This document shows positions 6,867 to 56,985 of a stretch of DNA of 64,000 bases, piece after piece (the first letter of the stretch is position 1; every line of letters starts with the position of its first letter). The notes under the pieces were generated by a model that saw only the letters and a list, made by a program, of their open reading frames with translations, searched no databases and was not told the origin of the DNA. A program made the position numbers and the translations under genes. The stretch comes from Fulvivirga lutea. GTDB lineage: Bacteria; Bacteroidota; Bacteroidia; Cytophagales; Cyclobacteriaceae. Location: the NCBI RefSeq assembly GCF_017068455.1, contig NZ_CP070608.1, positions 3,205,488 through 3,269,487 on the forward strand, given 5' to 3'.

Positions 6867-7718
6867 ATGAGCACTGCCCCTAATATCGAAGAACTTAAAA
6901 ACATTTCATCCCAGGTAAGAAGAGATATCGTACGAATGGTACATGCTGTTCAATCCGGCCACCCAGGTGGTTCTTTGGGCTGTACCGAGTTCTTTGTCGC
7001 ACTCTATTTTCATGTATTAAAACATGACAAATCATTTAACCCTGATGGTATAGGAGAAGATCTTTTCTTTTTATCCAACGGACATATTTCACCAGTATGG
7101 TACAGTGTTTTAGCAAGAAGCGGGTATTTCTCTGTTGATGAATTAAACACGTTTAGAAAGATAGACTCTCGCCTACAAGGCCACCCAGCTACTGAGGAAG
7201 GTTTGCCGGGTATCAGAATTGCTTCCGGATCCCTAGGTCAGGGCCTTTCTGCTGCATTAGGCGCTGCTCAAGCCAAGAAGTTGAATGATGACAAACACCA
7301 CGTATATGTTTTGATGGGTGATGGTGAGCAAGATGAGGGGCAAGTTTGGGAAGCAGCAATGTATGGAGCGCACCACAAAGTGGATAACATAATCGCTACC
7401 ATTGATTATAACCGTCAGCAGATAGATGGAAGTACGGATGAAGTAATGGGCTTGGGCGATTTAAAGGCCAAGTGGGAAGCATTTGGTTGGCAGGTAATTG
7501 AAAGCGAAGGAAATGATATTGAAAGCCTAATAAAATCATTAGCACAAGCCAAAGCCCTTTGCGGTAAAGGTAAGCCAGTAATCAACCTAATGAAAACAGA
7601 AATGGGTTTTGGTGTTGATTTCATGGTTGGCACACATAAGTGGCATGGTATCGCACCAAGCGATGAAGAGCTTGAAAAAGCCCTTGGCCAGTTAGAAGAA
7701 ACATTAGGTGATTATTAA
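6867..7718 (+). CDS. Transketolase, N-terminal (TPP-binding) subunit
   Basis: The 283-residue protein is the first third of transketolase. The thiamine diphosphate/metal motif runs from GDGE (151-154) to N182 in TIDYNRQQ. The substrate/TPP loop GHPGGSLG (31-38) and GSLGQGLS are also visible. The central pyrimidine-binding and C-terminal domains are encoded by the next gene, so the enzyme must be a two-chain complex in the pentose phosphate pathway. This split is normal in many Bacteroidota and Firmicutes and is not a frameshift: each half has its own start and stop, with 21 bases between them. Confidence 0.95.
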   Translation: MSTAPNIEELKNISSQVRRDIVRMVHAVQSGHPGGSLGCTEFFVALYFHVLKHDKSFNPDGIGEDLFFLSNGHISPVWYSVLARSGYFSVDELNTFRKIDSRLQGHPATEEGLPGIRIASGSLGQGLSAALGAAQAKKLNDDKHHVYVLMGDGEQDEGQVWEAAMYGAHHKVDNIIATIDYNRQQIDGSTDEVMGLGDLKAKWEAFGWQVIESEGNDIESLIKSLAQAKALCGKGKPVINLMKTEMGFGVDFMVGTHKWHGIAPSDEELEKALGQLEETLGDY

Positions 7719-7739
7719 AAAAGAAAAGAAAAAGAAATC

Positions 7740-8693
7740 GTGACTAAGCTTACATATACAGAAAAGAAAGATACCCGTTCAGGATTTGGTGAAGGTCTTC
7801 TAGAACTAGGCAAATCAAACCCTAATGTTGTAGCACTTTGTGCTGACCTTACGGGATCATTAAAAATGGATGCTTTCAAAAAGGAATTTCCTGAAAGATT
7901 CTTTCAGGTTGGTATCGCAGAAGCAAATATGATGGGCCTTGCAGCTGGTATGACAGTGGGTGGAAAAATACCATTCACAGGTACATTTGCTAACTTTTCT
8001 ACAGGTAGAGTTTATGATCAGATAAGACAATCCATTGCCTACTCGGGTAAAAATGTTAAAATCTGTGCTTCGCATGCCGGACTTACTTTAGGTGAAGATG
8101 GAGCAACCCACCAGATTTTAGAAGACCTAGGAATGATGAAAATGTTACCGCACATGACGGTAATTAATCCGTGTGATTACAATCAAACTAAAGCTGCTAC
8201 AATTGCCATTGCTGAGCATGAGGGTCCTGTGTATTTAAGGTTTGGAAGACCAAAGTGGCCCATCTTTACCCCTGAAAATCAAAAATTTGAAATAGGTAAA
8301 GCACTGCACCTGGTAGAAGGTAAAGACGTTTCCATATTTGCCACGGGTCACATGGTATGGCAAGCTATTGAAGCAGAAGCTATTTTAGCAGAAAAAGGCA
8401 TTTCTGCAGAGATCATTAACATCCACACCATAAAGCCGTTGGATGAAAAAGCCATTCTAGAGTCAGTTAAGAAAACAGGTTGTGCTGTTTCTGCAGAGGA
8501 GCACCAAATGAATGGTGGGTTGGGTGAAAGCATCGCTCAAACGCTATCTCGTAATCTCCCTACTCCATTAGAAATGGTGGCAGTTAACGATAGTTTTGGA
8601 GAAAGTGGTACACCTGAAGACCTTCTGGTAAAATATGGCTTAGGTCCACAGAATATTGTGGATGCAGCAATGAAAGCTATCAGTAGAAAGTAA
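7740..8693 (+). CDS. Transketolase, C-terminal (pyrimidine-binding) subunit
   Basis: The 317-residue protein completes the transketolase encoded just upstream. The catalytic glutamate that activates the thiamine pyrimidine ring is E61 in QVGIAEANMMGLAAG. The segment FGRPKWPIF and the C-terminal NDSFGESGTPEDLL match the transketolase C-terminal domain. Translation starts at a GTG (7740), preceded by the purine-rich stretch AAAAGAAAAGAAAAAG. The start residue is supported by alignment of the following TYTEKKDTRSGFGEGL to family N-termini. It is co-transcribed with the N-terminal subunit, which keeps the two chains in balance. Confidence 0.95.
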   Translation: MTKLTYTEKKDTRSGFGEGLLELGKSNPNVVALCADLTGSLKMDAFKKEFPERFFQVGIAEANMMGLAAGMTVGGKIPFTGTFANFSTGRVYDQIRQSIAYSGKNVKICASHAGLTLGEDGATHQILEDLGMMKMLPHMTVINPCDYNQTKAATIAIAEHEGPVYLRFGRPKWPIFTPENQKFEIGKALHLVEGKDVSIFATGHMVWQAIEAEAILAEKGISAEIINIHTIKPLDEKAILESVKKTGCAVSAEEHQMNGGLGESIAQTLSRNLPTPLEMVAVNDSFGESGTPEDLLVKYGLGPQNIVDAAMKAISRK

Positions 8694-8809
8694 ATGTCGT
8701 TCATTACGGTACTTATTTTAACAGTTCAATCCTTCTAAATTTCACCTATCACACTTGTTTAGTTGAAATTAAATTCCGTTAATGGCGATATTTCTTAATG
8801 TCAGATTGC

Positions 8810-8842
8810 TTGCTGAGTAATACACCCGTATTGTTAACTTTA
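8810..8842 (+). promoter_or_regulatory. Possible promoter in the 272-base gap before the HisKA-like gene
   Basis: A TTG at 8810-8812 stands 22 bases before TAACTTTA (8835-8842), which matches the Bacteroidota -7 box TAnnTTTG at all but the last base. The predicted start point would leave a 5' leader of over 100 bases. Nothing else recognisable lies between 8694 and 8965. Confidence 0.25.
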
Positions 8843-8965
8843 GTACTTGAATCAATTAATAGGCATACCCTAATTCTAAGATTCTGTACCTTTTCAATGT
8901 AATTACATCCGCCAGCCTAAATAATTGATCCTTTTTTTAGTATACTTATATTGAATTTGCAAGGT

Positions 8966-9853
8966 ATGAGTATCGAGAAATTTTTCATTACAAACTTTTT
9001 GAAAGTTGCCTTACTAGGTGTTGGGATCGTACTCATACTTGATGCTATTATCTATCCTGAAGATACCTTATCCTTAATTATTGATGCTGCTATTTTAATT
9101 ACAAGTATATTTTGCTACTGGTTAAGTAGAAATTATATTAGTGCAGCTACCATAGTTTTTGGAACAGTTGTGTTAGGCCTGATGCTATTGCAAAGTTTGA
9201 CTGTTCCTGTTAATACAACCATATCGCTTTCCATTATATTAGTTATTGGTTTTGTATTTTCCATACTATTAAAGAAGGCAGTATTAGTTACAATGCATGC
9301 CATAACAATTTTATTATGTACCACTATTTTTATTTTGCAAGCATCCAATGCTGAACTAAGATTTCAGCAAGAACCGGTTGAAGTTCTTACGCTGGCTGTA
9401 ACTTTTTTTATCCTTTATGGTGTACTCACCTCTTCAACATTCTTTCTAAAATCAAAATATGATTCCAACAGAAATCATTTAAAAGAATTGAATTCAAACC
9501 TTCATGATAAGGCTATGGAAATAGAGGCACAAAATGAAGAACTACTTCAAATTCAGGATAATTTAAACCAATTAAATATTGACTTAGAAAGGCAAGTAGA
9601 AGAGCGAACCAAGTTATTGAAGGAAAAGAATAAAAGATTACTTACATATAGTCATAATGTTGCTCACGACATACGAGGCCCCATTGCACGGTTACTGGGT
9701 CTTGCCAATATTAGTAAGTTAGATAAGGACAATAATCCTCATATTTTTATTTCTAAGATTCAAGAACAAACAGAAGAACTTGATAAAGTTATTAGAAAAG
9801 TAAGCCTTGGGTTAGAACAGGATGATCAAAATGATGAAGATAGAATTAGTTAA
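8966..9853 (+). CDS. Membrane protein with coiled coil and HisKA-type phosphoacceptor segment, lacking an ATPase domain
   Basis: Five or six hydrophobic membrane segments fill the first ~160 residues. A coiled coil follows (about 170-225), and then [20 protein letters not shown], which is the H-box of a sensor histidine kinase dimerisation domain with the phosphoacceptor His followed by Asp and Arg-Gly-Pro. The protein ends about 60 residues later, so the HATPase_c domain (N, G1, F and G2 boxes) is absent. No remnant is visible downstream, where the convergent methionine synthase gene begins with an 8-base overlap. It may be phosphorylated by a partner kinase, may act as an inhibitor or dimerising scaffold, or may be a degraded kinase. 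I start it at ATG 8966 (MSIEKFF). A TTG at 8951 in the same frame would add five residues. Confidence 0.75.
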
Positions 9854-55464: not shown

Positions 55465-56676
55465 ATGAACATACACGAATATCAAGCTAAAGACATACTA
55501 AAAAATTACGGTGTAAATATCCAAAGAGGCATCGTGGCAGATAATCCTGAAAAGGCACTAGCAGCTGCTAAGGAATTGAATAAAGAGACTGGTACTAGCT
55601 GGTATGTATTAAAGGCTCAAATACATGCAGGTGGTCGTGGAAAAGGAAAGATTAAAGAAACAGGATCAAATGGTGTTGTTCTTGCCAAATCAATTGATGA
55701 AGTTGCCCCTAAGGCGAAAGACATCATTAATGGTACTTTGGTTACCCATCAAACTGGTGAAGAAGGTAAGAAAGTAAACAAGCTTTTAATTGCTGAAGAT
55801 GTATACTACCCGGGAGACTCAGAACCGAAAGAATATTATATGAGTATTTTGCTTGATAGAGCAAAGGGATGCAACGTAATCATGGCTTCTACTGAGGGCG
55901 GAATGGACATTGAAGAGGTTGCAGCAAATACTCCAGAAAAAATTATTAAAGAATGGATCGATCCTTCTGTTGGATTACAGTCATTCCAGGCAAGAAAGGT
56001 AGCTTTTGCATTAGGGTTGGAAGGTAATGCTTTTAAAGAAATGGTAAAGTTTATTCATTCCTTATACAAAGCATATGAAGCAACAGATTCTTCAATGTTT
56101 GAAATTAATCCTGTGCTGAAAACTTCAGATGATAAAATTCTAGCAGTTGATGCAAAAGTAAACTTAGATGATAATGCTTTATTTAGACATAAGGATCTTG
56201 TAGAGCTAAGAGATATAAGTGAAGAAGATCCGGCAGAAGTAGAAGCTGGAAAGTCTGGCTTGAGTTATGTGAAGTTAGATGGCAACGTTGGGTGTATGGT
56301 AAACGGAGCTGGTTTGGCCATGGCAACAATGGATATCATTAAACTTTCAGGTGGTGAGCCTGCTAACTTTCTTGATGTAGGTGGTGGTGCCAATGCTGAA
56401 ACTGTAGAAGCCGGGTTTAGAATCATTTTAAAAGATACTAGTGTTAAAGCTATACTAATTAACATATTTGGTGGTATTGTTAGATGTGATAGAGTTGCGA
56501 ATGGTGTTGTTGAAGCCTACAAGAAAATAGGCAATATTGATATTCCAATTATTGTAAGACTTCAAGGTACTAATGCAGAAGAAGGTGCTAAAATCATTGA
56601 AGAGTCAGGGCTGAAGGTTGCATCAGCCATATTATTGAAAGATGCCGCTTCAAAAGTAAGTGAAGTATTAAAATAA
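55465..56676 (+). CDS. sucC: Succinyl-CoA synthetase beta subunit (ADP-forming)
   Basis: The 403-residue citric-acid-cycle enzyme subunit has an ATP-grasp domain (about 1-230, opening [17 protein letters not shown], with [13 protein letters not shown] and FEINPVLK) and a C-terminal CoA-ligase domain (about 255-395). The phosphate-binding segment is [16 protein letters not shown] and the Rossmann-like part is [14 protein letters not shown]. It pairs with SucD to interconvert succinyl-CoA and succinate with nucleotide phosphorylation. The sucD gene is not in the window, so the two subunits are encoded at separate loci. The downstream neighbour is the tRNA-Arg region. Confidence 0.95.
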
Positions 56677-56707
56677 GTTTAAATAGCATCCGTAGTTCAA
56701 CTGGATA

Positions 56708-56727
56708 CCTGCCTGTCGGCAGACAGG
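56708..56727. repeat. 20-bp palindromic insertion in the D-loop of the disrupted tRNA-Arg
   Basis: CCTGCCTGTCGGCAGACAGG sits between GGATA and GAATA of the tRNA. The intact copy has these directly joined, so exactly 20 bases were added without target duplication. The arms CCTGCCTG and CAGACAGG form an 8-bp hairpin with one mismatch and loop TCGG, resembling a REP element. Confidence 0.85.
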
Positions 56728-56762
56728 GAATACCAGATTTCGGCTCTGGAGGTTGAGGGTTC

Positions 56763-56909
56763 CCCGCCTGAATGCCGAAAATAAGAGTATATTAGAATTG
56801 ATAAATTCTAATTCTGCGTCTGTAGTTCAACTGGATAGAATACCAGATTTCGGCTCTGGGGGTTGAGGGTTCGAATCCTTCCAGGCGCACATTGTAATCG
56901 GCAGGCAGG
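56763..56909. mobile_element. Palindrome-flanked block inserted in the T-loop of the disrupted tRNA-Arg
   Basis: The block starts with CCCGCCTG (56763-56770) and ends with TCGGCAGGCAGG (56898-56909). Joined together, these two would form a hairpin much like the 20-bp palindrome in the D-loop. Between them lie an AT-rich leader with an 8-bp hairpin (TTAGAATT 56792-56799 with AATTCTAA 56804-56811) and a complete tRNA-Arg gene. Whether the whole block moved as a unit or arose in steps is not resolved by this window. Confidence 0.55.
56816..56889 (+). tRNA. tRNA-Arg(TCG), intact
   Basis: A 74-base cloverleaf: acceptor GCGTCTG (56816-56822) with CAGGCGC (56882-56888, one G-T), D-arm with TAGTTCAACTGGATAGA, anticodon stem CCAGA/TCTGG with loop TTTCGGC giving anticodon TCG, T-arm GAGGG-TTCGAAT-CCTTC, and discriminator A at 56889. 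CCA is not encoded. It reads CGN-type arginine codons. It lies wholly inside the block that splits the other tRNA-Arg copy. Confidence 0.95.
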
Positions 56910-56927
56910 GAATCCTTCCGGGTGCAC

Positions 56928-56954
56928 AAACCGCTTTATTTAAGCGGTTTTTTT
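56928..56954 (+). terminator. Terminator of the tRNA-Arg region
   Basis: A 9-bp stem, AAACCGCTT (56928-56936) with AAGCGGTTT (56942-56950), has a 5-base loop and a run of seven T. It starts one base after the discriminator of the disrupted tRNA, as expected for that gene's original terminator. Confidence 0.92.
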
Positions 56955-56985
56955 GTTTATGGGATTTAAAAAGGTCTTTTAGGCC

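Follow-up and report, generated by a model that had tools for sequence, protein, structure and literature searches.

A tRNA-Arg gene nested in a scarred copy of itself in Fulvivirga lutea: a probable remnant of a tRNA-targeting GIY-YIG element

Results

An intact tRNA-Arg gene lies inside an interrupted copy of itself

The window, by which we mean the whole 64,000-nucleotide stretch of the Fulvivirga lutea genome analysed here, carries at 55465-56676 on the forward strand a 403-aa open reading frame (ORF) that we take to be sucC, encoding the beta subunit of succinyl-CoA ligase. The named sucC relatives closest to it come from Flammeovirgaceae and Cyclobacteriaceae, and the gene is a conserved upstream neighbour of tRNA-Arg. 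Downstream on the same strand begins the 5' part of a tRNA-Arg(TCG) gene (56686-56762, tRNA positions 1-57), which runs as far as GGGTTC and is there interrupted in the T-loop by a 147-nt block (56763-56909). The remaining 3' part, GAATCC...CGGGTGCA, from tRNA position 58 to the end, follows at 56910-56926 (+ strand). The block opens with the palindrome arm CCCGCCTGAATGCCG (56763-56777, + strand), continues with a spacer (56778-56815, + strand) that holds an A+T-rich hairpin, AGAATT..AATTCT, and then with an intact tRNA-Arg(TCG) gene (56816-56890, + strand; called by ARAGORN, Rfam score 62.7 bits), and closes with the second palindrome arm, CGGCAGGCAGG (56899-56909, + strand). This inner gene is the sole tRNA that ARAGORN, or Rfam at its gathering score, finds in the window.

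The initial annotation had described a tRNA-Arg split in its T-loop by a block containing an intact tRNA-Arg(TCG), and on this the coordinates, ARAGORN and Rfam all agree. The end of the 5' part at GGGTTC (56762), the position of the 3' part (56910-56926) and the 147 nt between them are likewise as it had given them; the two outer pieces meet exactly, as it stated, and their acceptor strands, GCATCCG and CGGGTGC, pair. The terminator that it placed after the distant 3' part is visible by eye as a terminator-like hairpin and T run at 56930-56955 on the forward strand. Its description of a split gene holds for the T-loop and fails in that the split is not clean: the outer copy also carries a 20-nt palindrome, CCTGCCTGTCGGCAGACAGG (56708-56727, + strand), at the boundary of D-loop and D-stem after tRNA position 22, which had been missed. 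Because this second palindrome is present, we regard the outer tRNA-Arg as a scarred copy rather than a cleanly split gene. The expected count of the 20-nt palindrome in 100 shuffles of the window is 0, and CCCGCCTGAATGCCG and CGGCAGGCAGG at the ends of the 147-nt block are the arms of a palindrome similar to it.

The acceptor strands of the outer copy pair mutually, whereas the inner copy has GCGTCTG/CAGGCGC; the differences between the two are paired changes at 3-70 and 6-67. Thus, the two outer halves belong together.

The genome is a single contig of 4,137,993 bases with 99.82% completeness. Loci were available for 30 of its 33 Rfam tRNA places and gave 32 different tRNA sequences (one uncovered place is the 85-nt stretch at 3957052-3957136); among those 30 the only intact tRNA-Arg(TCG) found is the inner copy. 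Counting the other tRNA-Arg(TCG) genes was one of the checks that the initial annotation proposed, and it returned the inner copy alone.

We considered two familiar kinds of insertion and rejected both. Group I introns in bacterial tRNA genes are insertions that can accompany homing nucleases (PMC3984707); the Rfam scan at gathering scores shows no group I ribozyme in the window, its sole match being the inner tRNA. The outer copy is not known to regain its function through splicing, and a second intact tRNA copy serves here instead. An integrase-type insertion finds no counterpart either, as the ORF list of the window contains no frame of 80 aa or more within the nest or its 147-nt block and hence no recombinase gene in the insertion.

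A single tRNA-Arg gene follows sucC in the rest of the genus

Another proposed check, a comparison of the region downstream of sucC, bears on the ancestral state. In 14 of 14 other same-genus genomes sampled, sucC is followed, 15-124 nt away, by one uninterrupted, intact tRNA-Arg(TCG), so the single tRNA is ancestral and the nest is derived. The score for a partial copy upstream of this tRNA at the sucC site is 5 to 7.5 in 13 of these genomes. In the remaining case (G011, locus L139) a degenerate piece scores 10.5, or 14.7 in another alignment, which is weak, and has a palindrome visible by eye; it is only suggestive of a scarred tRNA copy.

Tandem tRNA-Val sequences were encountered at other loci. 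G011 has, at L203, several tandem tRNA-Val(TAC) 3' ends with a terminator, placed between two intact tRNA-Val genes, and G024 has ten tandem tRNA-Val-like matches on contig C1 (4232212-4233490 and 1249402-1249900), spaced by about 203 and 219 nt.

The same anatomy recurs at tRNA-Val(GAC)

The pattern of the 20-mer occurs at five places in the genome: in the window, near 490 kb, and at three places that show no tRNA. The copy near 490 kb belongs to a second nest, on the reverse strand (locus L116, genome 488500-491500, locus positions 1564-1363), where an outer tRNA-Val(GAC) is split in its D-loop. That D-loop carries a 20-mer identical to the one in the tRNA-Arg nest, and five bases past it begins a block, CCTGCCAGCCG-...-intact tRNA-Val(GAC)-...-CAGGCTGG, in which the inner gene, the only intact tRNA-Val(GAC) found in the genome, sits between palindrome arms. 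Without the insertions the outer tRNA-Val(GAC) is a complete tRNA whose acceptor strands, GGGATAT and ATATCCC, match. In other words, the nest anatomy recurs within one genome at another tRNA. The initial annotation had called such nesting unusual; the nest is real, but with this second case, and with scarred tRNA pieces across the phylum (see below), it is not unique.

Two of the three palindrome copies outside tRNAs lie within a longer repeated sequence at L118 (1360-1379 and 4734-4753), about 3.4 kb apart.

REP-like repeats would be numerous, dispersed and nearly identical; the pattern has only five copies genome-wide, two of them in tRNA nests. REP and Rickettsia palindromic elements are short palindromes inserted into genes (PMC3733652), and the term GIY-YIG does not occur in the text of that paper. 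Unlike those elements, the palindromes described here occupy loops in tRNA copies that are dead and that neighbour GIY-YIG genes.

An assembly or sequencing artefact is scarcely conceivable, given one contig of 99.82% completeness that holds two nests independent of each other, and given that other assemblies show the same features. We also considered whether the outer tRNAs might still be used, the nested transcript folding so that the outer halves meet and the palindrome and inner block are cut out to give a split or spliced bacterial tRNA. The RNA folds of both nests are stabler than those of shuffled sequences (z of -3.4 and -3.7), the predicted fold of the Val nest is a cloverleaf inside a cloverleaf, and the pairing of the outer acceptor strands has been kept. 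The presence of the inner tRNA and the palindromes would by itself raise stability, however, so that a stable nest fold does not prove a working outer tRNA. Comparable pieces elsewhere are truncated or heavily broken, and both nests offer an intact gene of the isotype in question. Use of the outer tRNAs is very improbable, and the Arg nest is most likely a dead outer copy around a live inner one. An archaeal-type tRNA intron would have a bulge-helix-bulge where it is spliced; in the predicted fold the Arg split point falls in a largely continuous helix, and a bulge-helix-bulge was not seen by eye.

A live outer copy set aside, the nests could have arisen by decay of a tRNA array. Following tandem duplication of a tRNA, the flanking copies would gain palindromes and lose their inner ends, so that a nest would be two independent dead copies, each broken at the apex of a T-loop (Arg) or D-loop (Val) palindrome, and no nuclease would be needed. 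This is a modified form of the alternative by which the initial annotation said its reading could be refuted, namely two independent partial copies, and it stays live as the main rival to the reading developed below, although we consider it unlikely. The three of five palindrome copies that lie outside tRNAs speak for it, as does a locus of G022 (L163) at which the intact tRNA-Arg is accompanied by a decayed, near-full-length 5' copy and by a 3' piece with the same trailer; extra copies flank both sides at L302, L306 and L310. Against it, the outer parts meet exactly in both nests, and in both the pairing partner of each outer acceptor strand is the other outer strand and not the inner copy.

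GIY-YIG nuclease genes stand beside tRNA genes across Bacteroidota

In two genomes of other families (G051 and G044), a tRNA-Arg 5' piece with the 20-mer, identical or with two changes and at the same point of the D-loop, is followed by a small ORF and then by an intact tRNA-Arg. In G051 this ORF encodes a nuclease of the GIY-YIG family (Pfam PF01541, E 4e-19). We found 72 places that match it, in 32 of 58 genomes including that of F. lutea. Within 500 nt of a tRNA called by ARAGORN lie 42 of the 72 genes, all of them on the strand of the tRNA; for scale, the 33 tRNAs of the F. lutea genome with 500 nt on either side make up 0.86% of it. The other 30 of the 72 are not near a tRNA, some of them on short contig ends, and count against a tRNA-directed element. 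These numbers exclude five repeat loci (L244, L267, L282, L280 and L281, the same as L221, L224, L226, L238 and L239), the removal of which took the matches from 80 to 72 and those near a tRNA from 49 to 43. A second piece in L278 fell outside the 72 rows, giving 42 of 71, and the F. lutea match at 1226142, with no tRNA nearby, was added as the remaining row, giving 42 of 72.

One genome, G468, has 12 GIY-YIG matches, with tandem genes spaced by about 365 nt (contig C34, about 6988-9763; contig C23, about 114369-115334).

A sample of the phylum gave a similar picture. Matches at E 1e-10 or better occurred in 42 of 118 genomes, and the best locus each from 30 of these 42 was read. Of the 41 ORFs at these 30 loci, 33 have a tRNA within 500 nt, and none is on the opposite strand. 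The other eight are not near a tRNA, which again counts against an element tied to tRNA genes; three of the 30 loci (L308, L309 and L311) have no tRNA.

Pieces of the same tRNA lie beyond the nuclease genes

We scored by local alignment the region beyond each ORF on the side away from the intact tRNA, that is, upstream of an ORF placed before the tRNA and downstream of one placed after it, with tRNAs of other isotypes as the null. Among the relatives, 34 ORFs were considered, one of which had no far region. A piece of the same tRNA exceeds the 95% point of the null in 24 of the remaining 33 and in 23 of 25 cases from the phylum sample, and the 99% point in 11 of 33 and 23 of 25; the ORF's own isotype outscores all tRNAs of other isotypes in 24 of 33 and 24 of 25 cases. 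At L224 an intact tRNA-Ser(GGA) has a GIY-YIG gene on each side and tRNA pieces on both sides.

Many of the pieces carry palindromes. At a score of at least 16, a cut that had no null of its own (the same aligner elsewhere gave a null 99% point of 14.1 and a maximum of 22.1 in 354 comparisons), a palindromic insertion is present in 27 of 53 pieces; that about half lack one counts against the element reading. With stems and loops set by position rules, and L290 left out for want of a T-loop motif, 29 of 34 insertions fall at loops or junctions (57% expected, p 4e-4). Restricting the test to loci with a nuclease gene, which removes seven insertions, leaves 22 of 27 at such positions (p 0.007).

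Both insertion points of the tRNA-Arg nest are used elsewhere. At L212, L213, L283 and L286, from four families (f17, f10, f26 and f24), a scarred tRNA-Arg 5' piece is followed by a GIY-YIG gene and then an intact tRNA-Arg, and the piece carries the 20-mer, either unchanged or slightly altered (19 nt long in L283), after position 22, or in L212 after position 21 of a shorter tRNA-Arg(CCT). At L297, a tRNA-Arg(TCG) 3' piece beside a GIY-YIG gene has its palindrome after position 57, the split point in the window, and reads GGGTTC-[CCTGCC...GGCGGG]-GACTCC. Thus in the window, as in this group, a partial or dead copy adjoins an intact copy of the same tRNA, with palindromes in its loops at points used by other members.

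Two observations run the other way. A search for the strict combination of D-loop and palindrome gave three matches in two of 390 genomes of the order; the pattern is too strict, for L212 and other variants escape it. In the two-sided cases with a nuclease gene, outer parts that join exactly were not seen: the parts overlap by about 5 nt at L224 and by more at L302 and L306, and are separated by a gap at L294.

Gene-less pieces occur in the F. lutea genome and elsewhere

Both nests lack a GIY-YIG gene, which counts against their belonging with these loci, and since no nuclease gene is left in the nest we infer the membership of the window in the GIY-YIG group. The F. lutea genome has seven Pfam GIY-YIG matches, five of them in short frames, and none is near any of its 33 tRNA places. 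We considered its own GIY-YIG genes as a source of the nests and set them aside: the two matches to the L161 protein have no tRNA in the surrounding 7.5 kb.

Pieces without a nuclease gene are found at other tRNAs of the same genome. A palindrome-bearing piece lies alongside tRNA-Met (L094) with a score of 24.5, above the null maximum of 22.1. Weaker candidates stand beside tRNA-Lys (L082; 17.1) and tRNA-Leu(TAA) (L097; 13.8, just below the null 99% point of 14.1), and the tRNA-Leu piece breaks, by eye, near the same point as a piece in G005 (L214). In G019, the stretches read at L200 and L201 likewise show no nuclease gene. To judge from the pieces at tRNA-Met, more weakly at tRNA-Lys and tRNA-Leu(TAA), and at the G019 loci, the gene-less form seems common, and the two nests fit it.

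Nuclease lineages follow tRNA isotype

We built two trees of the nucleases, of 52 and 100 rows, dropping from both any match with a stop or spanning fewer than about 55 query residues. The 52-row tree, which takes one nuclease per locus and tRNA and only those within 120 nt, has weak support, with 78 columns and 25 of the 52 rows from one family. On it, tRNA isotype requires 19 changes (the least possible is 12), against a mean of 37.5 for shuffled labels, and none of 500 shuffles is as low. Host family requires 26 changes, against a shuffled mean of 26.5, and 215 of 500 shuffles are as low. By this comparison of protein sequences, the nuclease lineages follow the isotype of the adjacent tRNA and not the host family. 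Of the main groups in the 100-row tree, that for Ser consists of Ser rows alone (10 of 10) and that for Leu has 8 Leu rows out of 9, its remaining member being a tandem copy outside the distance limit; against this, there is hardly any clustering of the Asn and Pro labels, and isolated Ser and Leu rows fall elsewhere.

A homing endonuclease element would cut its empty target at a specific site and be copied into it; the observations here that bear on this are limited to patchy presence and lineages that follow isotype. Decay of a tRNA array leaves unexplained these lineages, the pieces of the same tRNA beyond GIY-YIG genes, and the single strand shared by all near cases.

Discussion

We think that the nest in the window is probably the gene-less remnant of a GIY-YIG element of Bacteroidota that targets and rebuilds tRNA genes, with an inner tRNA-Arg that works and an outer one that is a dead scar. 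A full element would consist of a small GIY-YIG gene flanked on one side by an intact tRNA and on the other by a partial or dead copy of that tRNA, in which palindromic hairpins often occupy the D-, anticodon- or T-loop. To explain this arrangement we suggest that the putative nuclease cuts its particular tRNA gene and that repair copies into the break both the element and the part of the tRNA needed to rebuild a working gene. The host would survive because repair restores that gene, and the displaced tRNA part would stay behind as a scar; the palindromes may have settled in it or contributed to its formation. The nest in the window would have lost the nuclease gene, or never carried one. The D-loop and T-loop palindromes would then mark the scar, with the working gene in the apex of the T-loop palindrome; it could have come to lie there through break repair at the palindrome, or because two dead copies were each broken at that point.

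More tentatively, and with somewhat less than even confidence, we propose a wider view: a Bacteroidota-wide class of tiny mobile elements, with one nuclease lineage for each type of tRNA, would enter and rebuild tRNA genes in one step. The loop palindromes would be working parts, which may prevent tRNA function of the dead copy or its recombination with the live one, or may serve in recognition by the nuclease. The nests would then be live single-copy tRNAs in the apex of a palindrome, inside their dead predecessors.

Such elements would resemble several known systems without coinciding with any. In mitochondria, homing elements that bring along a substitute gene end, of which the Allomyces atp6 insertion is one, place a nuclease gene in a gene, restore the missing part and leave a remnant. 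The present case differs in its target, a tRNA gene, in the palindromes of the remnant and in its bacterial setting. Integrative elements and phages that insert into tRNA genes rebuild the 3' end and leave a partial copy. Unlike these, the 147-nt block is tiny and lacks a recombinase gene, and 5' as well as 3' pieces are found here, immediately beside the gene.

Free-standing GIY-YIG homing endonuclease genes are known as the Seg type of phage T4 (PMC2988022, PMC13096335); in the latter paper, the homing nuclease SegB is tied to escape from a defence that cuts tRNA-Tyr. The Bacteroidota genes share with the phage genes their small size, their GIY-YIG nuclease and a presumed spread into a defined target. 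They differ in being chromosomal and in abutting an intact tRNA on its strand, in the far-side piece of the same tRNA with its loop palindromes, and in lineages sorted by isotype. Among the matches listed for the open-licence full text of PubMed Central, none describes GIY-YIG genes of Bacteroidota that are accompanied by scarred tRNA copies.

If the proposal is right, tRNA genes across the phylum host isotype-specific nuclease elements that rebuild their target, and these are a bacterial counterpart of gene-restoring homing elements. They would supply ready pairs of nuclease and target, and would show how single-copy tRNAs end up inside dead copies. The positions of the palindromes raise the question of whether they insert into folded, tRNA-like DNA or have been selected to disarm the dead copies. 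Odd partial tRNA genes would also be explained, possibly including some miscalled ones such as that at L263.

At this last locus ARAGORN calls tRNA-SeC what seems to be a copy of tRNA-Met whose anticodon arm holds a palindrome; dead copies like it may be misannotated elsewhere.
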